A stretch of DNA of 32,025 bases from a virus. Of the stretch, positions 662-28,366 are shown piece after piece; position 1 is the first letter of the stretch; every line of letters begins with the position of its first letter. Position numbers and translations under genes: made by a program. The DNA is taken from positions 1 to 32,025 of IMG/VR virus record IMGVR_UViG_3300035703_000304; one strand, written 5' to 3'. A model generated the notes under the pieces. That model saw only the letters and a list, made by a program, of their open reading frames with translations. It made no database searches and had not been told where the DNA came from.

Positions 662-3256
662 ATGCCTACTTATACGATTAACGGTAGAAGAGTAATAACA
701 GAACAACCTTTATCAGATGACGAGATTGATGAGATTGCTAGTACAATACAGCAACCTACAAGCGGAGTAACACCTAAAGAGTTGTCTAGGGTTTTTCAAC
801 GTAATCGCCCACAACAAACAGGTGTACCTACTGGTGATTATTTAAGCGATGTGGCTAAAGGTGCTATAGCAAGGTTTGGTCCTCAGATTATGAGGGCTAT
901 GGGTGGTATGGAAGCTCCGTTGGAAACACCTTCTACACAGCCTTCGTTAACACAGAACATCGAGCAGCAGCTTATTAGACCAGTAGAAAGAGCAGCTCAA
1001 CAGGCTGTGGGTTATCAGCAGGTTTCACCACCATCTAGAACAGCGAGAGCTGTCGGGGCTGGTATTGAATCGGCACTAGATCCTGTTAGTATTGCATCAG
1101 GTGGTGGTGGTATTGTACCTAGACTACTTGGTGGTTTCATACCAGGAATGACCGCTGATATTGGTGGTCAAGTTGGTCAAAATGTTGCTGGTGACACAGG
1201 ACAAGTTATTGGTGCTTTAGCTGGTGGTATAAGTGGTGGTGTTGCTCAAGGAACTATACCAAGGGCTACAGTAATGGCTAGTCAGGCTAAACCTTTGATG
1301 CAGCGTATGCGTGGCACTGTTCCTGAAGAAGAGGTTCTACGTCAAGCTGACAACACTGTAACTTCTATCTTCCAAGCAGCAGCACAGGCAGATCCTAAGT
1401 TTGCTGAAGCATTAGCTAAATCACAGCAGATCAGTGCTACCACAGGTGTGCAGCTACCAGCATCAGCAATGCTGAATAATAATCCTGTACTAGGTGACTT
1501 GATTAGAAACTTATCAAGTAGAGACCCTGCTTTCCGTAATCTGTATGGTTCACAGTTTGAACAAGCAATGGATACCTTGTCAGGAAGAGCTACTAGATTG
1601 TTCGGTGATCCTACACAGGCTAACTTTATCCTTCAGCAAACACTAAAGAACATACCTTTAGATAAAATCCAACAACGCAGGCTTGACGCTATTAACCAAC
1701 AAATAGCTAAGTCTTCTACCTTTAAAGTTGAAGATCCAGAGGCTCTTGGTACTCGTGTTGCAAAGTTAGTTGAAAAACAGGAAAAAGAAGCTAGAGAACT
1801 TACACAACCTTTCTACAAAGCTGCTTTTGATTATGCAGAGCAGAATAACATCAACCTGCCTGCTGCAGGTGTTGAGGATATCTACAGATTTGTAAACGAT
1901 ACAAGAGCTGCTGATAAGTTTTTCTCTTTTCCTTCTATATGGAATAAAATAACAAAACCTCCATCAGAGAGAAACCCAGGTGGTTTTGGACCAGTTAAAG
2001 ACGAAGCAGGTAATTTAGTCTTTAAGGATGCTTCCATAGCTGACATAGACTCTTTAAAAAGAGAAATTAACTTACAAATTAGAAAAACAAAAGATGATCC
2101 AGCATCGCAAAGATTGTTGTCATCTCTTAAAAACTCATTTGAAGATACTATCTCTAATGTATCAGAAGACTTTAGTCGCCTCTACAAAGCAGCAGACGCT
2201 GCTTACTTAGAACGTGTCGGTCTTCCTTTTAATCAAGAAGCTATTAAACAGATTGATAGAGCTAAATTCAATGAGTCTGTTCTTCCTGTCATTACTAAAA
2301 ACAAATCAGCATTGTCTCAGTTTGTTGATGCTACTGGTGAGGAAGGAAGAGACCTAGCTATGAAGGCTTTTCTGACGGACTTTGACCGTGTTGCTGTTAA
2401 AGACGGTGTCATTGATCCTAAAGTAGCCCGTAAGTGGTTGAAAGAAAACTCTGGTGAATTAGTTGTTCTAGGTGATAAAGCTGATGTTATCCGTAAAGCA
2501 GTCACCGATGTTACTGAACTGAATGCACAGAAGGTAAGAATCAATAATGCCTTTACAGAGGCTAGGAAAGGTAATCTACTTCAATTAGAAGGTAAGACTG
2601 CTCAGGATATCGTCAACAACCTGTACAGTAACCCAACTAATGTAGATCGTTTCTTACGTACTTATGGTAGTAACATCGATACCTTGAATGCTGTTAGATC
2701 TTTTATGTTAGATGATATTCTGTCAGCACAAAACCCTGTAGAGGCTCTAACAGATCGAACACGTAAGGCTACTTACGATAAAGTCTTTGGGCCTACTTAC
2801 GCTAAGAATGTAGAGAATCTTGCTGAAGCTGCTCGTAGATTGTCAGTAAACCCTGCTGATGTTAAGTTTAATGTAAAAGAAGTGCCGACAACACCTATTG
2901 AGCAATTAGTTGGTGTCCCTCCTGAAGAGATTATCTCTAAGTTAAGAAACCCAATAGCAAGTACTACATGGGCGGTGTCATCTATCTTGTCTAAGTTCTG
3001 GGCAAAGCAGACAGCAGCAGCCACTGATGAGAAGCTAAAGACTTTATTGTTAGATCCTAAATCAACTAGGATATTGTCAGAGGCTCTGACACCTAAAGCT
3101 GATGGTACGCTAGATCTTACAGCGGCTAAAAGGCTAGTAGATTTAGGTAAGAAAGCTGGTATTGATTGGACTACGATGGTTATTGATGATGCTGCTAGAG
3201 GTGCTGCTAGAGCTATTCCAGCTATCCAGGCTGGTATGCCGGAGGAGATGCAGTAA
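662..3256 (+). CDS. Large probable internal virion / ejection protein, 864 aa
   Basis: An 864-residue protein starting at ATG 662, with purine-rich AAGGAATAAG just upstream. It opens with a short hydrophilic segment, followed near residues 145-200 by a Gly/Ala-rich stretch with many GG pairs (for example IGALAGGISGG) that resembles a membrane-active or glycine-zipper segment. The rest is long, helical and charged. No enzyme motif is visible. Size, position late in the structural operon next to holin and endolysin, and the glycine-rich segment fit a DNA-ejection protein of the capsid core. This is inference; there is no recognised family. The stop codon overlaps the start of the holin-like gene by one base, so the two are probably translationally coupled. 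Confidence 0.65.
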   Translation: MPTYTINGRRVITEQPLSDDEIDEIASTIQQPTSGVTPKELSRVFQRNRPQQTGVPTGDYLSDVAKGAIARFGPQIMRAMGGMEAPLETPSTQPSLTQNIEQQLIRPVERAAQQAVGYQQVSPPSRTARAVGAGIESALDPVSIASGGGGIVPRLLGGFIPGMTADIGGQVGQNVAGDTGQVIGALAGGISGGVAQGTIPRATVMASQAKPLMQRMRGTVPEEEVLRQADNTVTSIFQAAAQADPKFAEALAKSQQISATTGVQLPASAMLNNNPVLGDLIRNLSSRDPAFRNLYGSQFEQAMDTLSGRATRLFGDPTQANFILQQTLKNIPLDKIQQRRLDAINQQIAKSSTFKVEDPEALGTRVAKLVEKQEKEARELTQPFYKAAFDYAEQNNINLPAAGVEDIYRFVNDTRAADKFFSFPSIWNKITKPPSERNPGGFGPVKDEAGNLVFKDASIADIDSLKREINLQIRKTKDDPASQRLLSSLKNSFEDTISNVSEDFSRLYKAADAAYLERVGLPFNQEAIKQIDRAKFNESVLPVITKNKSALSQFVDATGEEGRDLAMKAFLTDFDRVAVKDGVIDPKVARKWLKENSGELVVLGDKADVIRKAVTDVTELNAQKVRINNAFTEARKGNLLQLEGKTAQDIVNNLYSNPTNVDRFLRTYGSNIDTLNAVRSFMLDDILSAQNPVEALTDRTRKATYDKVFGPTYAKNVENLAEAARRLSVNPADVKFNVKEVPTTPIEQLVGVPPEEIISKLRNPIASTTWAVSSILSKFWAKQTAAATDEKLKTLLLDPKSTRILSEALTPKADGTLDLTAAKRLVDLGKKAGIDWTTMVIDDAARGAARAIPAIQAGMPEEMQ

Positions 3257-3723
3257 TGTTTGAACTCATTGGTGCTCTTATCGGTGGTGTATTCAGGTTA
3301 GCCCCTGAAGTACTGAAGATCTTAGATCGTAAGTTTGAAAGAGAACATGAGCTAAAGAAGTTAGACGTTGAAGTATCTATTGCTAAGATGCAAGCAGAGT
3401 TTGCTCTACAGCAGGGGCATCAGCGTCTACAAGAGCATGAATTAGATGCTATCGGTGAAGCATTCAAACAACAAGCAGAGTCTGATGGTAAGGCTTGGAA
3501 GTGGGTAGCATCGCTGTCAGCACTAGTTAGACCTGCAGTGACTTACTGGTTTGTTTTCTTTTACTCAGCAGTCAAGATTGCAGGGCTTTACTTAGCTTTC
3601 TTACAAGACGGTAGTTGGACTTCTGTACTCGTCACAGGCTGGACTGATTTCGATGAGGGAATGCTTGCTATGATACTTTCGTTTTATTTTGTGGGTAGGG
3701 TTTGGGAGTCATCGAAAAAATGA
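3256..3723 (+). CDS. Holin-like membrane protein
   Basis: 155 residues with the architecture of the 3-TM phage/GTA holins (PF11351-like). There is a short hydrophobic N-terminus (about 3-18), a charged helical middle (about 22-80, rich in E, K and Q), then hydrophobic segments at about 89-117, starting with an 'ALVRPAVTYWFVFF' stretch, and about 134-147. Holins collect in the inner membrane and open it at a set time so that endolysin reaches the wall. It starts on the last base of the upstream gene and is followed by an HNH gene and then the endolysin, a normal lysis-cassette position apart from the intervening HNH gene. The family call is by pattern, not a search; a head-tail accessory membrane protein is the main alternative. 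Confidence 0.65.
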   Translation: MFELIGALIGGVFRLAPEVLKILDRKFEREHELKKLDVEVSIAKMQAEFALQQGHQRLQEHELDAIGEAFKQQAESDGKAWKWVASLSALVRPAVTYWFVFFYSAVKIAGLYLAFLQDGSWTSVLVTGWTDFDEGMLAMILSFYFVGRVWESSKK

Positions 3724-4184
3724 TAGACAAAGTAAAGAAAGCTGAACAAAATAGAAAGTATAGGGAAAAGAATAAAGATGATCTTAGGGAAAAGAAAAAA
3801 CAATACTATTTGAAAAACAAAGAGTCTATCAGGCTTAAGTCTAAGCAAAACTATGAAGTTAACAAAGAAGCGTATAAAGAAAGAGCAAAGAAGTGGAAAA
3901 AAGATAACGCAGCAAGACACAATGCTTTATGTATGGATAGACATGTTAAGAAATTAAAAGCAAGGCCTTCCTGGTTAACTATGATTCAATTAGTACAAAT
4001 TCAAGAGTTCTACGAAATAGCTAAAGCACGTTCTTATCAGACTGGTATTGTTCATCATGTAGATCATATTGTCCCACTACAAGGTAAGAACGTATCTGGT
4101 TTACATGTTCCTTGGAATCTACAAATTTTAACTGCCTCAGACAACTGCAGTAAAAGAAACGGTATATGGGAATCAAAGAAGTAA
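3720..4184 (+). CDS. HNH homing-type endonuclease in the lysis cassette
   Basis: I choose ATG 3720, which overlaps the holin stop as ATGA; an in-frame TTG at 3702 is possible but less likely. The protein has 154 residues: a very Lys/Arg-rich N-terminal half (about 1-85), probably DNA binding, with repeated 'YR/YK-E-KNK' like segments, then an HNH nuclease domain with HHVDHIVPL at about 112-120 and an Asn-rich second half (NLQILTASDNCSKRN). HNH enzymes of this kind nick or cut DNA and often behave as selfish free-standing homing endonucleases. The gene sits between holin and endolysin and overlaps both, so it looks inserted into the lysis operon. It is more A-rich than its neighbours, which agrees with an independent origin. 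Confidence 0.85.
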   Translation: MIDKVKKAEQNRKYREKNKDDLREKKKQYYLKNKESIRLKSKQNYEVNKEAYKERAKKWKKDNAARHNALCMDRHVKKLKARPSWLTMIQLVQIQEFYEIAKARSYQTGIVHHVDHIVPLQGKNVSGLHVPWNLQILTASDNCSKRNGIWESKK

Positions 4185-4828: not shown

Positions 4829-6727
4829 TTAGATGTCGCAAACGCCAGAAACACAGGCCAATTGCTGTGCGCCTTCGACGTTATCATCTACTTCCTTAAG
4901 ATCATCCCAGTTAATGTTGGTAGGCATCTTAGCTAAGAGATCATTGTACTCTTGTTCAGTACATGTCTCATAAGGAGCCTGCCTATATGTACCACCATCC
5001 ATAGGTAAGAATGATACACCAGTACAGATATCAAAGTTCCTGTACACCCAAGCCCCTACAGTAGGCCAATCTTCTTCGTTCACTGAGATAGTCACTGAAG
5101 GCTTATGTTCGCACCAATTAAGCTGATAGATCTTCCATAGGTTTAAGTGTTCAATAGAAGATACATCATCCCTAGTTACTGCAGCATCAGGAGCCTTCAT
5201 AGGAAACGAGAACACTGTTGTACTATCTGGTCTCATCACACAAGGCTCATTAGGGATACCCTGACTAATCATAAACGCTGTAAGAGGATCTTTTTTATCC
5301 GATCTAACACGTCTAATGTAATACGCAGCATGTTGTGGGTGAATTCCACTAGCAGTGCCACACAACTGAGACACAGTACCAGAAGGCTTAACGCAAGTGA
5401 TAGCAGCAGAGACAGGAATACTAAGAGCATTTGCTGTAACTTCATTTGCAGTGACTGCTTCATGCTTAAGATCCTGTAGTCTTAATGGTAACTGAATATC
5501 ATTAGGATCATTCAACAAAGGATTGTCATAGATCCCTGTCAGCGATACACCCAATAAACGCTCTTCAGCAGTGTTCTTTTCCCAGATCTTACGCAGATAA
5601 GGGAAGTCAGTCATTGTGCTCTGCCAAGTGCCTAGAATCGATGCTACACGTACTTTGTAGCGTAGATCTTCAATGGTATCTGTAGCTCTGACAATGACCT
5701 CAGTGAGGTTACAGAACTGGTATGGACGTAGAATGATCTCGCTGCAGGGATTCGTACCAAAGTCATGATTAGGATCTCTACGACCGTTGATAGCAGCTTG
5801 TTTCTGCGATGCCTCCCTGTTGAAGATACCACGCTCACCAGAATGACTCTCGTAGACTGAGCACCATTCACGCATGAACTGACCCACTGAAGGCTTCGTA
5901 TCATACACAGCAGAGTTGTTCGCTAAGCTACGTTGTCCTTGTTGTTCCCACCAAGAGCCAGCTTTAGCGTGTGCCATACGATCATCACTTAGATCGCTTA
6001 AAGATATCATCGCAGATCGCCGCACACCACCCACAACAACAACTTCCCCGATCTTGCACAGAATATCATGGCATTCAATGGACGACAGACGACGATTTTT
6101 GGCCGACTGGAACTTCCTAATAACAAACTTGAATAGTTCAACGAGGGGTTCTGGGCCAGAAGCTCTGCCTCCAAAGGTCTTAAGTCTTGCCCCAGCAGGT
6201 CTAACTTTGGAGACATCCCACTTTGCAATCTCTCCAGCATAGAGTAAAGCAATGAGTTGTCGTAGTGCTTTAGCCCAGCCCTCTTTGCTGTCGGATACCA
6301 CGATAGTAGTTTTACTATCAAATAACTGATCAGGGACTTCAGGTAATTGATTGACATACTTAGACTCTACAGAGAAACCGACACCAGTGCCACACAGAAG
6401 GATGTACATTGCCTCATCGAATGACTTAGGATCATCGATGGGTAGATACGAACAATTATATCCTGCAATGTTCTGACGCTCTAGTGCTTCACCAGCAGTC
6501 ATCATACACCGCATCGAAGGCATCACATCCAGGTTCAGAATAGCCTTGTGTACAGTCTTATAGATATGCTGAGGAATCTCATACTTATGTTTCTTCAGTA
6601 ACTGCTTTTGCATAAAAGCCATGTAGCGATCTACAGTCTCGCCCCAGTTCTCTCTACGTCCTTGTTCGTCAAGAAACCTACTGTAACGGCTCTTGTGGAT
6701 AAATGCTTGGTAGTTATTCAACTTCAT
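4829..6727 (-). CDS. nrdJ: Class II (adenosylcobalamin-dependent) ribonucleoside-triphosphate reductase, monomeric
   Basis: 632 residues, resembling the Lactobacillus leichmannii RTPR type. It reduces ribonucleotides to deoxyribonucleotides with a cobalamin radical and needs no oxygen. Visible active-site residues: Cys92 (YNCSYLP), the N-P-C-S-E motif at 326-330 (Cys328 and Glu330), Cys339 eleven residues after Cys328, which matches the 408/419 spacing in RTPR, and the C-terminal relay pair Cys625 and Cys630 (CVSGVC). There is no C-terminal zinc domain of the larger NrdJ type. It is preceded by a 58-residue gene with an ATGA overlap, is the last large gene of the replication operon, and would supply dNTPs together with ThyX. 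The host or environment must provide B12. Confidence 0.95.
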   Translation of the reverse strand: MKLNNYQAFIHKSRYSRFLDEQGRRENWGETVDRYMAFMQKQLLKKHKYEIPQHIYKTVHKAILNLDVMPSMRCMMTAGEALERQNIAGYNCSYLPIDDPKSFDEAMYILLCGTGVGFSVESKYVNQLPEVPDQLFDSKTTIVVSDSKEGWAKALRQLIALLYAGEIAKWDVSKVRPAGARLKTFGGRASGPEPLVELFKFVIRKFQSAKNRRLSSIECHDILCKIGEVVVVGGVRRSAMISLSDLSDDRMAHAKAGSWWEQQGQRSLANNSAVYDTKPSVGQFMREWCSVYESHSGERGIFNREASQKQAAINGRRDPNHDFGTNPCSEIILRPYQFCNLTEVIVRATDTIEDLRYKVRVASILGTWQSTMTDFPYLRKIWEKNTAEERLLGVSLTGIYDNPLLNDPNDIQLPLRLQDLKHEAVTANEVTANALSIPVSAAITCVKPSGTVSQLCGTASGIHPQHAAYYIRRVRSDKKDPLTAFMISQGIPNEPCVMRPDSTTVFSFPMKAPDAAVTRDDVSSIEHLNLWKIYQLNWCEHKPSVTISVNEEDWPTVGAWVYRNFDICTGVSFLPMDGGTYRQAPYETCTEQEYNDLLAKMPTNINWDDLKEVDDNVEGAQQLACVSGVCDI

Positions 6728-21163: not shown

Positions 21164-21226
21164 TCGGCTTGGAACACTTTAGGGGGTAGTGTGTCCGAAA
21201 CCCCTGTTCTTTTCCAAGGAGAACTT

Positions 21227-21628
21227 ATGAAAACATGTTTCAAATGTAAAGAAACAAAAGAACTAAGTAATTTTTATAGAAAAACAAAAGCATTAGACGG
21301 TTATCAAGCCTTTTGCAAACCTTGTTCAAACAGACACTCTAACAATAGGGTTGTTAAAAAAGAACAAAGACAACAGTATGATAATACTGTTAGGCGATTT
21401 AAAAGGTATGGTCTAACAAAAGAAATATTTAATCGTATGCTAGAGGCTCAAAACAGTAAGTGTAAAATTTGTTTAGAAAACATGCTTGTTCCCAACATTG
21501 ATCACTGCCATACAACAAATAAAGTACGTGGTATCTTATGTTCGAGCTGTAATCTAGGGCTAGGTAAGTTTAAAGATAACCCAGAATTATTAAGAAGAGC
21601 GGCAAATTATTTAAGGGATGAAGGATGA
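21227..21628 (+). CDS. Recombination endonuclease VII-like (HNH) nuclease between terminase genes
   Basis: 133 residues from ATG 21227 (AAGGAG, five to six bases upstream); an in-frame GTG at 21191 with its own SD (AGGGGG) would add 12 residues. An N-terminal zinc pair (Cys4, Cys7, Cys30, Cys33) precedes the Endo VII domain: YGLTKEIFNRMLEAQ, CKIC (79-82), IDHCHTTNKVRGILCSSCN (91-109) with the catalytic DH-x-H and second CxxC, and a C-terminal LGKFKDNPELLRRAANYL. The family resolves branched DNA in T4, but small free-standing members are usually homing endonucleases. It separates terS from terL and overlaps the terL start by four bases. Confidence 0.85.
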   Translation: MKTCFKCKETKELSNFYRKTKALDGYQAFCKPCSNRHSNNRVVKKEQRQQYDNTVRRFKRYGLTKEIFNRMLEAQNSKCKICLENMLVPNIDHCHTTNKVRGILCSSCNLGLGKFKDNPELLRRAANYLRDEG

Positions 21629-22895: not shown

Positions 22896-24830
22896 ATGAA
22901 ATTTGATTCAGATACAACACCACAGAATGCTCTTGTAGCTTATGTGATGCAGCATTGCGATGATTGGAGAAATCACCGTGATGAGAACTATCTAGATCGT
23001 TGGAATGAATATGAACGTCTTTGGCGTGGTATCTACGAAGAAGGTGATAAGACAAGAGCTTCTGAGAGATCTAAGCTGATATCCCCTGCCCTTCAGCAAG
23101 CCATTGACAATAAGACATCAGAGATTGTTGAAGCAGTATTCGGTAAAGGTCAGTTCTTTGATATTGTTGATGATCTTCAGGATCAAGACAAAACAGACGT
23201 AGGACTGATGAGAAACCAGCTACGTGAAGACTTTGACAAAGATAAGGTACGTAAGGCTATTACTCACATCGTTACCCTTGCAGAGGTCTATGGCACTGGT
23301 ATTGGTGAGTTGATTGTCCGAGAAGTAAAGGATAGTAGACCAGCAACACAGCCTTCTGCAGTGCCTGGACTACGTATGGTAGGTGTATCATCTACGAATC
23401 GTATCTCTGTACAGCTAAAGCCTATCAATCCACGTAACTTCCTTATTGATCCTAATGCTAGCACTGTTGATGAAGCCTTAGGCGTAGCTATTGAAGAGTA
23501 TGTCGGAAGACATTCAGTCATTAAAGCCATGGAAGATGGTGTCTATCGTAGGGTTTATGTCGGTACTGCAGCAGAAAACACAGACTTAGAGCCAACACAA
23601 GACATTACTTACTTCCAAGATGACAAGGTTCTATTGCTTCGATACTATGGTTTAGTACCCAAAGCATTGCTTGATGATCCTGATCAAATGATTGGCCCTG
23701 ATGAGGAGATGTATTCAGAGTTGGTAGAGGCTCTAGTGGTCATTGCTAATGGAGAATCACTGTTAAAAGCAGAGGTTAGTCCCTTCATGATGCAAGATAG
23801 ACCTGTTGTAGCCTACCAAGCTGACATTGTTCCTAATCGTTTCTGGGGTCGTGGGACAGGTGAGAAGGGCTATAACATGCAAAAGGCTACGGATGCACAG
23901 ATTCGTAGTCACGTTGACTCTTTAGGGCTTACAACAGCCCCTATGATGGCTATAGATGCTACGAGACTACCTCGTGGTGCTAAGTTTGAGGTACGTCCTG
24001 GTAAGACAATCCTTACCAATGGTGCTCCTAACGAGATTCTACAGCCTCTAAAGTTTGGTAATACTGATCCTGGTAACATCCAGACAGCACAATTGTTCGA
24101 AAAGATGCTTCTACAAGCTACAGGTACACTGGATTCAGCATCGTTACCTGGGCAAGTTGCTGGTGGAGACGCTGCCTCAGCAGGTTTAGCCATGGCTGTA
24201 GCCTCTTTGATTAAGAAAAACAAGAGAGCACTGACAAACTTCCAGGATGATTTCCTTATTCCTTTTGTAGAGAAGGCTGCATGGCGGTATATGCAGTTTG
24301 ATCCTGAGCGTTATCCTGTCCAAGACTTTAAGTTTATACCTACAGGTACAATGGGTATGATGGCTAGGGAGTTTGAGCAGTCTCAGATCATTGCATTAAT
24401 GTCTACATTAGGGCCAAACAGTCCTGTACTGCCTTTATTGCTGCAAAGTGTTGTAGAAAACTCTTCGTTACCCAACAGAGAGATGATTATGCAGCAGTTG
24501 ATGCAGATGTCACAGCCTGATCCAGCAGCACAGCAGGTTCAACAGCAGGCTGCACAGATCCAATTAGCGACAGCACAGGCTGATGTGCAGGAAAAGCAGG
24601 CTAGAGCACAGAAAGCTCAAGCAGAGGCTCAGAAAGCCATTGTAGAGGCTCAGTTGATGCCTGAGAAGCTAAAGGTTGATGTTCTTCAGGCAGCATCGAC
24701 GAACATTGATGACCCTAACAGGGAGTTCGAACGTCGAGTAAAGATCGCTGAATTAATGTTAAAAGAAAAAGACATTGATTCAAAGGTCAATATCGTCAGA
24801 GAACAAACCCGTCAGGACGCAATGAACTGA
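22896..24830 (+). CDS. Portal protein (podovirus-type)
   Basis: 644 residues following terL. Typical portal features are present: an N-terminal helical segment with DRWNEYERLWRGIY and SKLISPALQQAIDNKTSEIVEAVFG, the NPRNFLIDPNAS segment near 185-196, and a long C-terminal region (about 545-600) rich in Gln, Ala and Glu (QQVQQQAAQIQLATAQADVQ) that should form the coiled-coil barrel or crown. It forms the dodecameric ring at one vertex through which DNA passes and on which TerL docks. The last 19 bases overlap, in convergent direction, the antisense HNH gene. Length and style are like marine and freshwater podovirus portals. Confidence 0.93.
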   Translation: MKFDSDTTPQNALVAYVMQHCDDWRNHRDENYLDRWNEYERLWRGIYEEGDKTRASERSKLISPALQQAIDNKTSEIVEAVFGKGQFFDIVDDLQDQDKTDVGLMRNQLREDFDKDKVRKAITHIVTLAEVYGTGIGELIVREVKDSRPATQPSAVPGLRMVGVSSTNRISVQLKPINPRNFLIDPNASTVDEALGVAIEEYVGRHSVIKAMEDGVYRRVYVGTAAENTDLEPTQDITYFQDDKVLLLRYYGLVPKALLDDPDQMIGPDEEMYSELVEALVVIANGESLLKAEVSPFMMQDRPVVAYQADIVPNRFWGRGTGEKGYNMQKATDAQIRSHVDSLGLTTAPMMAIDATRLPRGAKFEVRPGKTILTNGAPNEILQPLKFGNTDPGNIQTAQLFEKMLLQATGTLDSASLPGQVAGGDAASAGLAMAVASLIKKNKRALTNFQDDFLIPFVEKAAWRYMQFDPERYPVQDFKFIPTGTMGMMAREFEQSQIIALMSTLGPNSPVLPLLLQSVVENSSLPNREMIMQQLMQMSQPDPAAQQVQQQAAQIQLATAQADVQEKQARAQKAQAEAQKAIVEAQLMPEKLKVDVLQAASTNIDDPNREFERRVKIAELMLKEKDIDSKVNIVREQTRQDAMN

Positions 24831-25396
24831 TTTAAGAAGTTAGCAATCTTTTGATGCTCTTCAGCAGTACCGTCATTCTTAATGCGGTTAGCTCTCCAAG
24901 ACATAATAACAACATTACCTTTGACATACCCTTTAGATGAGTCAATACGATCAAAACTAACTGAGTTTTCTTGTCTTTCTGATGCAAAGTAGTCTAGTTC
25001 GATACCTAGTACCGGACAATGTGTTGGAAAGACAATGTCGTTAAAGCTGATTGTCCACTCATGTTTGTAGTTAGAAGCCTTCTTACGTCTGAACTTCTCT
25101 CTTAATAGTTGATAAGAGTCTTGTTCTCGTATAGAGGCTTCTTCAGGGTAATGTCCCCACTTCCTTTTGTAGTTGTTTCTAAGAAGCTGTCGTCGCTGTG
25201 TTTGAGGACGTTGACTCTCATCCAACCGACCATTTAAGACTAACTTGCTAATAAGCTGATGTACTCGTTGTCTTGAAACATCACCGAGTTGTTTCTTAAT
25301 TTGTTCGGTTGACTTTCCTTCAATCACTAAGTCATAAACAAGTTGTAAGCGTTCTTCAGCACTTAAGTCAGTCTTAGCAAAGTGTAATGATTTCAT
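24812..25396 (-). CDS. Antisense HNH-type homing endonuclease with N-terminal HTH
   Basis: I choose ATG 25396 (194 residues; GGAG five bases upstream). The N-terminal third resembles a helix-turn-helix (LSAEERLQLVYDLVIEGKSTEQIKKQLGDVSRQRVHQLISKLVLNG). The C-terminal half has THCPVLGIELDYFAS, then SFDRIDSSKGYVKGNVVIMSWRANRIKNDG, a pattern seen in phage homing-type nucleases with an 'FDR-D-KGY-NV' block. It is the only minus-strand gene in the head operon, has its own promoter (25416-25444), and its 3' end overlaps the portal gene. A selfish insertion between portal and downstream genes is the simplest reading. Confidence 0.82.
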   Translation of the reverse strand: MKSLHFAKTDLSAEERLQLVYDLVIEGKSTEQIKKQLGDVSRQRVHQLISKLVLNGRLDESQRPQTQRRQLLRNNYKRKWGHYPEEASIREQDSYQLLREKFRRKKASNYKHEWTISFNDIVFPTHCPVLGIELDYFASERQENSVSFDRIDSSKGYVKGNVVIMSWRANRIKNDGTAEEHQKIANFLNQFIAS

Positions 25397-25415
25397 AGGC
25401 TCTCCTAAAACAATC

Positions 25416-25444
25416 ATTGTACCACGCTTCACTGACTAAGTCAA
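25416..25444 (-). promoter_or_regulatory. Promoter for the antisense HNH gene
   Basis: On the minus strand: TTGACT (25439-25444), exact 17-base spacer, extended TGG-TACAAT (25416-25421). It is back to back with the plus promoter at 25450. The transcript would have a leader of only about 10-15 bases containing the GGAG before ATG 25396. Confidence 0.7.
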
Positions 25445-26820: not shown

Positions 26821-26892
26821 ATGGCTTCAGCAGCTTATCCTGGAGGTAGTTCCTCCATCGTTAACAAGACCAATGCGGATAAATTTATCCCT
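26821..26892 (+). CDS. Major capsid protein, exon 1 (residues 1-24)
   Basis: The exon encodes MASAAYPGGSSSIVNKTNAD then KFIP and ends with codon CCT at 26892. If unspliced, translation would stop two codons later at TAA 26899-26901, giving a 26-residue peptide. Joined to exon 2 (27485-28366) it gives KFIPEIWSDEIV, the N-terminal arm pattern common to this capsid family. The last six bases, ATCCCT, pair with the intron guide GGGGAT (26906-26911) with a U-G at the splice site. AAAGG stands 9 bases before the ATG. Confidence 0.85.
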
Positions 26893-27484
26893 AGCCTATA
26901 ATTTTGGGGATGTAAAACCTTCTCTGAATAACTGGGAAAGAACGTAAGGTGTCTTAACCAGAGGGAACACGACATTACCAACAATGCAGTTCACGCCTAG
27001 GAGGGTGTATGAAGCGATTAAGTTGGAAGTATATTGCAGGTTTGATTGATGGCGAAGGCTGTCTAGATGTTCAAGTAACAAACGGTATTTATGTCAGACC
27101 AAGAGTAAGAATAGGTATGGCAGTGAATGCAAAGATGATACTTGATATGATGCAAGTTAATCATGGTGGTTATTTATGTCACCGTGAAAGTAAGAATGGA
27201 AACTGGCAAGATTCTGTAAGTTGGGAACTTGTTGGTTACAGTCAAGTATGTCCTTTCTTACGAAATATTGCTAACCATCTATATATCAAACACGAACAAG
27301 CCAGGTTTCTCCTTTGGATGGAGAATAACTTAAAAGGCAAGCAGGTCGCTGATGAAGCAAGACAGCTTGTGATAACTGAGCTAAAAGCAATGAAGCGTGA
27401 CCCGCACAGACTAAGTGAGAAGGCACAGGAGAAAGTTTTAATACTTCTGTGATGCGATAGTCGGAGTATCTTTTTAGATACTGG
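26893..27484 (+). mobile_element. Group I self-splicing intron in the capsid gene
   Basis: 592 bases. P1: exon ATCCCT with intron GGGGAT (26906-26911), ending in the required U-G pair. P10: the first six bases of exon 2 (GAAATT) pair fully, with one G-U, to AATTTT (26900-26905), which is directly beside the P1 guide. The intron ends in G (27484) after a perfect hairpin AGTATC/GATACT (27465-27482), a good P9. A P3 candidate is ACCTTCT (26917-26923) with GGAGGGT (27000-27006). R-like GTTCACGCCTA (26989-26999) and S-like GATAGTCGG (27456-27464) are present, but their P7 pairing has a mismatch by eye. A LAGLIDADG gene lies in the loop between them. Confidence 0.9.
27009..27452 (+). CDS. Intron-encoded LAGLIDADG homing endonuclease
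   Basis: 147 residues from ATG 27009 behind AGGAGGG. The motif YIAGLIDGEG (8-17) is a single LAGLIDADG helix, so the enzyme should act as a homodimer and recognise a partly palindromic site. Downstream strands and helices (VRIGMAVNAKMILDMMQVNH ... FLRNIANHLYIKHEQARFLLWM) fit the family. It would cut intronless capsid genes near the 26892/27485 junction and so spread the intron. The SD lies in the proposed P3 helix, so translation may be limited while the intron is folded. The stop is 32 bases before the 3' splice site. Confidence 0.92.
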   Translation: MKRLSWKYIAGLIDGEGCLDVQVTNGIYVRPRVRIGMAVNAKMILDMMQVNHGGYLCHRESKNGNWQDSVSWELVGYSQVCPFLRNIANHLYIKHEQARFLLWMENNLKGKQVADEARQLVITELKAMKRDPHRLSEKAQEKVLILL

Positions 27485-28366
27485 GAAATTTGGTCAGATG
27501 AAATCGTTGCTTCTTACAAAAAAGCTCTTGTGATGGCTAACCTCATCAACAAGATGAGCATGAAAGGTAAGAAAGGCGATACCCTTCACATTCCAGTGCC
27601 CACCCGTGGCTCTGCATTCGCTAAAGCAGCTAACACTGCTGTTACGATTCAGGCTGATGTTGAGACTGAAGTTCAGGTGCTCTTGAACAAGCACTTCGAA
27701 TACAGCCGCTTCATCGAAGATATCGTCGAAGTTCAGGCTCTGTCCTCGCTTCGTCGTTTCTATACGGAAGATGCAGGCTATGCACTTGCTCGTCAAGTAG
27801 ATACCGATCTTATCCAACTTGGTCGTTCCGCTAACAACGGTGCTGGCACTGCTGCTTATGCTAACGCATACATCGGTGGTGATGGTAGCACTGCTTACAA
27901 CAGCGCATCGCCCAATGCTTCTGCATTGACCGACCAAGGTATTCGTCGTATTATCCAGCGTTTGGATGATAACGATGTTCCTATGACTGATCGTTATTTG
28001 GTTGTTCCTCCTTCCAGCCGTAACACGTTGATGGGTATCGACCGCTTCACCGAGCAGGCTTTCGTTGGTGAAACCGCTGGTGGCAACACCATCCGTAACG
28101 GCCAGATCGGTGATGTGTATGGCGTTAAAGTGTTTGTTACGCCTCAGTGTGACACCGCTACTGGTTCAGCACGTATTGCATTGATGTTCCACAAAGATGC
28201 AGCAGTGATGGCAGAACAAATGGGTGTTCGTTCGCAGACCCAATACAAGCAAGAGTACCTTGCTACATTGTTCACTAGCGATATGCTCTACGGTGTTTCT
28301 TTGCTCCGTAAGGGTGACCTTGCTAGCGTACCAACCTCGATGTTCCCCATCGCAGTACCTGCTTAA
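27485..28366 (+). CDS. Major capsid protein, exon 2 (residues 25-317)
   Basis: Exon 2 begins GAA ATT TGG (Glu-Ile-Trp) after the intron's last G and continues SDEIVASYKKALVMANLINK, then a beta-rich region with DTLHIPVPTRGSAF, VEVQALSSLRRFYTEDAGYALARQVDTDL, and a C-terminal domain with DRYLVVPPSSRNTLMG and GVKVFVTPQCD, the HK97-like layout of podovirus major capsid proteins. Total spliced length is 317 residues. The codons are more GC-rich and C-ending than in the neighbours, as expected for the most highly expressed gene. A GTG at 27530 is in frame but is not the natural start. A stem-loop follows the stop. Confidence 0.9.
   Translation, partial: EIWSDEIVASYKKALVMANLINKMSMKGKKGDTLHIPVPTRGSAFAKAANTAVTIQADVETEVQVLLNKHFEYSRFIEDIVEVQALSSLRRFYTEDAGYALARQVDTDLIQLGRSANNGAGTAAYANAYIGGDGSTAYNSASPNASALTDQGIRRIIQRLDDNDVPMTDRYLVVPPSSRNTLMGIDRFTEQAFVGETAGGNTIRNGQIGDVYGVKVFVTPQCDTATGSARIALMFHKDAAVMAEQMGVRSQTQYKQEYLATLFTSDMLYGVSLLRKGDLASVPTSMFPIAVPA

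Follow-up and report, generated by a model that had tools for sequence, protein, structure and literature searches.

A probable mobile group I intron, encoding a LAGLIDADG endonuclease, in the major capsid gene of a phage and its relatives

The window considered here (the whole stretch of DNA analysed, a linear viral record of 32,025 bases) poses the question of how a phage could make its major capsid protein from a gene that closes almost as soon as it opens, as the frame from 26821 runs for 26 codons and then meets a stop. The preliminary description had proposed that a group I intron divides the gene, and joining 26892 to 27485 does give a single in-frame capsid frame of 317 codons; the length and final G of the intron were likewise as described (Table 1). 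Beyond the Phage_capsid_2 match of exon 2, the spliced protein matches a solved major capsid protein (PDB 9jwb, E=8.4e-38) in an alignment that spans the exon junction, reading ...DSFIPEVWTGEV... At 74 intronless capsid loci the site is uninterrupted and FIPEIW-like in sequence, with exon-1-like residues joined directly to exon 2, and homologues without the exon 1 residues, named in the preliminary description as evidence that would count against the intron, were not found among the intronless capsid homologues. With a probability of roughly 0.93, a mobile group I intron occupies 26893-27484 and interrupts the major capsid gene; its splicing would yield the 317-residue protein and its spread would be driven by endonuclease-mediated homing.

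Table 1. Features of the interrupted capsid gene, the intron RNA and the endonuclease ORF, in window positions.
Feature	Position	Strand	Details and evidence
Exon 1, major capsid gene	26821..26892	+	24 codons, ends ...KFIP; translation and joining; intronless homologues run FIP^EIW
P1 5' strand AUCCCU	26887..26892	+	last six bases of exon 1; U of U.G at 26892; covaries with internal guide sequence
Group I intron	26893..27484	+	592 nt, omega-G end; 42 distinct relatives, same junction
P10 guide AAUUUU	26900..26905	+	pairs with exon 2 27485-27490 GAAAUU
Internal guide sequence GGGGAU (P1 3' strand)	26906..26911	+	covariation in relatives
P3 5' strand CCUUCUC	26918..26924	+	paired in 42/42, double changes at 6/7 pairs
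P4-P5	26930..26961	+	CUGG 26932-26935 with CCAG 26958-26961; by eye; agrees with RF00028 alignment of L372
P6 5' strand GGG	26963..26965	+	partner 27401-27403 CCC; by eye
Hairpin adjoining endonuclease AUG	26993..27008	+	Shine-Dalgarno AGGAGG 26999-27004 in loop and 3' arm
LAGLIDADG homing endonuclease ORF	27009..27452	+	147 codons, one motif, I-CreI/I-MsoI type
P6 3' strand CCC	27401..27403	+	within endonuclease ORF; by eye
P7 5' strand GACUA	27409..27413	+	within endonuclease ORF; pairs with UAGUC in 42/42
P3 3' strand GAGAAGG	27417..27423	+	within endonuclease ORF; covariation
P8	27424..27451	+	CACAGGAG 27424-27431 with CUUCUGUG 27444-27451; by eye
P7 3' strand UAGUC	27458..27462	+	pairs in 42/42 with GACUA
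P9 hairpin AGUAUCU-UUUU-AGAUACU	27465..27482	+	read from sequence
Exon 2, major capsid gene	27485..28366	+	starts EIWSDE; Pfam PF19821, E=3.6e-14; spliced protein compared with 9jwb

Every helix of the intron is intact in the window, and both guide pairings that had been read at 26900-26911 are present, together with the U.G pair at the splice site, and covary across relatives. The transcript RNA would fold around P3-P8 and P4-P6, guanosine bound in P7 would attack at the U.G of 26892, and P10 would position exon 2 for ligation into the capsid frame. From this anatomy and from the covariation described below we infer splicing of 26893-27484, and self-splicing with guanosine as cofactor is predicted.

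A search with the endonuclease ORF gave 72 loci in viral contigs, at most of which the capsid resumes just past the ORF at the same residue (query residue 25), with no junction filter applied, and whose capsids fall to about 21% identity to that of the window. From these relatives 42 distinct introns were extracted (114 copies, with some contigs counted twice), and all 42 lie at (F/Y)(I/V/L/T)P^(E/Q)xW, mostly P^E(I/V/L)W. The extraction filter demanded CCU before the intron and (GA[AG] or CA[AG])NNNTGG after it, so that the shared junction is partly built into this set; independent support for what appears to be one junction is provided by the unfiltered capsid matches at the endonuclease loci and by the upstream sequences. 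Compared in pairs, the host capsids are 29% identical at the median and 14% at the least; alignment limits the lowest values. Among relatives left out are L185, where the 3' splice site could not be placed, and L121, excluded by the exon 2 rule, which has the same junction with EIY instead of EIW. In L209 (minus strand, near 5870 of the reverse complement) a related intron with a shifted guide and one N is displaced downstream by about 6 nt and seems to separate the V from the W of FIPEVW. Pattern searches for the core in genome contigs gave matches at a chance-like level, and among the matches listed none had the 3' core. A DNA search of phage records gave no match and a protein search of them found distant capsids and endonucleases only, so that no cultured phage with the window intron was found in the phage-record collection.

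Covariation across the 42 distinct relatives supports both the group I identity and the splice sites proposed in the preliminary description. P1, with its U.G set by the internal guide, is found in the window and is fully paired in 40 of the 42 relatives (L147 and L190 each have a single mismatch), with compensatory changes at 3/6 pairs, as in ACGCCU/GGGCGU, UUGCCU/GGGCAA and AUACCU/GGGUAU. P3 is fully paired in all 42, with compensatory changes at 6/7 pairs, and its pairing was not used in extraction; P1 and P7 served as extraction anchors and their percentages therefore lean upward. P7, also paired in 42/42, is nearly invariant and for that reason of little use as covariation evidence. The pseudoknotted P3/P7 core is thus present, with P4, P6 and P8 assigned by eye; inspection in the same manner showed P6 swaps to AGG/CCU in L105 and to GAG/CUC in L104 and L142, and a P8 that varies and re-pairs among relatives. 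All six P10 pairs occur in the window and the complete set in 18/42 relatives, and the final omega-G is found in the window and in the listed relatives, where it is not independent evidence because the exon 2 search required that G. None of 2000 shuffles equalled the observed pairing for P1, P3 or P10, the shuffles ignoring kinship.

The search with the RF00028 group I model that had been offered as a check did not detect the intron, as the window gave no group I match either at the gathering threshold or at E<=10. L372, a relative without the endonuclease ORF, has a full-length RF00028 match with the helices in the same places (39.8 bits, E=7.8e-9), which is below the curated cut-off of 50, so that neither sequence reaches the curated threshold; this cut-off governs detection and does not define the structure of a group I intron. 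The window intron was probably missed owing to the ORF located in P6, an insertion of roughly 370 nt, together with divergence. Rfam searches of 19 relatives gave only one match, to a second, different intron in L120, and those of 8 further relatives gave tRNAs only. The L120 match (5564-5834, RF00028 81.4 bits) adds another group I intron to a capsid gene that already has one, and in L101, L133, L142 and L148 exon 2 is interrupted again shortly after the first intron. The relative in L372 (4566-4766, minus strand) retains an endonuclease remnant only (ELMQDPQRLNGED), and its flanking protein may belong to a different capsid family.

The preliminary description had made no mention of the endonuclease gene inside the intron. 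The window ORF matches Pfam LAGLIDADG_1 at E=0.0014, below the Pfam cut-off, and 26 of the 27 family members match PF00961 at E<=0.01, the window member again falling below the cut-off. A profile of the endonuclease homologues matches the I-MsoI and I-CreI structures over residues 8-114; the single motif is YIAGLIDGEG, with A10, G11, D14, G15 and G17 invariant in 27 sequences, so that the helix, the acidic catalytic residue and the related sequence expected of a LAGLIDADG protein are all found. Like the homodimeric I-CreI and I-MsoI, which are of similar length, the endonuclease carries one motif, and it therefore probably works as a homodimer; in contrast to them, its C-terminal tail (...ELKAMKRDPHRLSE) lies outside the profile match and doubles as RNA core. 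Pairwise dN/dS is about 0.08-0.19 (in the region before the core overlap, where computable), and by this measure the endonuclease is under purifying selection. In L122, L123, L125, L132, L134, L148 and L150 the ORF is about 40-55 codons longer, before the P7 3' strand, and these extensions have CxxC-like pairs resembling a zinc-binding domain and are apparently encoded in the P8 loop (by eye). Elsewhere in the window are an endonuclease VII type gene (21191-21628, plus strand, Pfam E=1.7e-22), an opposite-strand match to a PHROG annotated 'endonuclease' (24812-25432, minus strand, E=7.6e-27), and a PHROG match of unknown function with a weaker endonuclease VII match (3702-4184, plus strand). 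A tRNA-Ser called by ARAGORN at 1417-1500 (minus strand) lies in an 864-codon opposite-strand ORF, has no Rfam tRNA match and is probably false.

The endonuclease ORF sits in the P6 loop, and about 52 nt (27401-27452) double as endonuclease codons and as P6', P7, P3' and P8, the stop codon at 27450-27452 overlapping the P8 3' strand. Translation of the ORF would unwind these four elements, and it is for this reason that control by the hairpin at 26993-27008 is proposed; the hairpin would hold translation down until splicing is done, and such control is probable by analogy with I-TevI of phage T4. In relatives, the stem abutting the AUG averages 4.2 pairs versus 2.75 in shuffled sequences, its sequences differ, and in some it has just two or three pairs. 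In T4, a hairpin bars ribosomes from the td intron core and its loss leads to less splicing; the td intron and I-TevI likewise have an ORF in the P6 loop with its 3' end in the core, a hairpin that masks the ribosome-binding site, and co-conversion of flanking exon sequence (PMC2988022, PMC3073962). The T4 case differs in having a GIY-YIG endonuclease and a thymidylate synthase gene, as opposed to LAGLIDADG and a capsid gene here, and in a core overlap of 20 nt, whereas the overlap here is about 52 nt and extends through P8.

In co-infecting phages that lack the intron, the endonuclease would cut the FIP^EIW site, and repair would then introduce the intron together with a few bases of the adjoining exons. 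Homing by cutting of an intronless allele is supported, at the level of sequence comparison, by one allele pair, L093 with the intron and L024 without it; over 880 nt of capsid exon the two are 99.3% identical. Their flanks, compared across 2000 nt, show 11 differences, four of which lie at -9, -3, 0 and +3, and at all four L093 carries the base of the window clade. That 4 of 11 differences should lie within one given span of 13 nt has a probability of about 6e-7 (binomial), the span having been chosen after the data were seen and being the insertion site itself; the cluster fits what would be expected of co-conversion. The four differences look synonymous (codons by eye); three of them (-3, 0 and +3) lie within P1 and P10, so that the intron would have arrived together with the exon bases that its guides pair with. 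Between L093 and the window, identity is 98.5% for the intron, as against about 72% for the flank upstream and for most of exon 2 (72.5% for the main part of exon 2), and the L093/L024 pair shows an intron that apparently jumped in recently. Over all members of the set, distances between endonucleases correlate with those between capsids (Mantel r=0.77), which fits long association plus local transfer. At the junction, proline is encoded by CCT in 42/42 intron alleles (in part owing to the search rule) versus 20/74 intronless ones. Possible, if doubtful, is a broader reading in which the lineage is long-lived and tracks one near-invariant capsid motif through divergent tailed phages, with the endonuclease as a weapon that cuts the capsid gene of intronless competitors. 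Such a weapon would act in mixed infection, much as has been reported for the intron endonuclease of phage PhiPA3 (PMC11620839).

Other explanations of the insertion can be weighed against these findings. It is very unlikely that the intron has decayed and no longer splices, in a phage that would be defective; the absence of any Rfam score for the window could be read in this way, whereas the intact helices and open ORF of the window, near-identical copies in several contigs, and an endonuclease dN/dS well below 1 argue otherwise. Insertion of a free-standing endonuclease gene, with translation of the capsid protein beginning inside exon 2 and exon 1 surviving as a remnant, is extremely unlikely: a GTG-start ORF does exist in exon 2 at 27530 and the endonuclease has its own Shine-Dalgarno sequence, but the residues of exon 1 can be aligned both with intronless capsids and with the solved capsid 9jwb, the exon 1 frame stays open up to xP in every one of the 42 distinct introns, and the intron helices covary across the ORF.

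That the insertion is a group II intron or an intein is scarcely credible. Inteins sometimes carry LAGLIDADG proteins. Group II introns also do so in some cases (PMC3073962), and the endonuclease type is to that extent compatible with both kinds; however, an intein is excluded by the stop codon directly past the exon 1 junction, and the P1/P3/P7/P10 pairing with a terminal G is the group I pattern, with no group II match in the Rfam search of the window.

A mobile group I intron, the preferred reading, has precedents in capsid genes, and the earlier statement that such introns are uncommon can stand only in a softer form, given the cases in mycobacteriophage LittleE (PMC3706429) and in crAss-like phages (PMC7886860). 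Splicing of the LittleE capsid intron (JF937101) was shown by RT-PCR and protein sequencing; as here, it is likely group I, interrupts an HK97-fold capsid gene in its N-terminal part, and has a LAGLIDADG ORF related to I-CreI (PMC3706429). It differs in its insertion site, within the Y of GG-Y-AVPPLW, which precedes the corresponding point by a few residues (motif by eye), and in having its endonuclease on the opposite strand. A passage in the same paper cites Tuc2009 in connection with capsid introns (PMC3706429), and crAss-like phages of the Delta and Zeta groups likewise have group I introns in MCP genes, sometimes several per gene (PMC7886860). Introns in capsid genes, endonuclease ORFs that overlap the core and hairpins at endonuclease starts are each separately known already. 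A description of a FIP^EIW capsid intron family was not found in the open-licence literature, and the introns described here form a new family of a known kind.

In summary, annotation without intron models misses the start of some capsid genes. With 42 distinct introns at one protein-coding site, the guide, the exon, the ribozyme core and the endonuclease can be traced together, and the family, along with the near-isogenic pair, makes it possible to test how the overlap between ORF and core originates ('core creep', PMC3073962) and how guides keep up with a target that changes.
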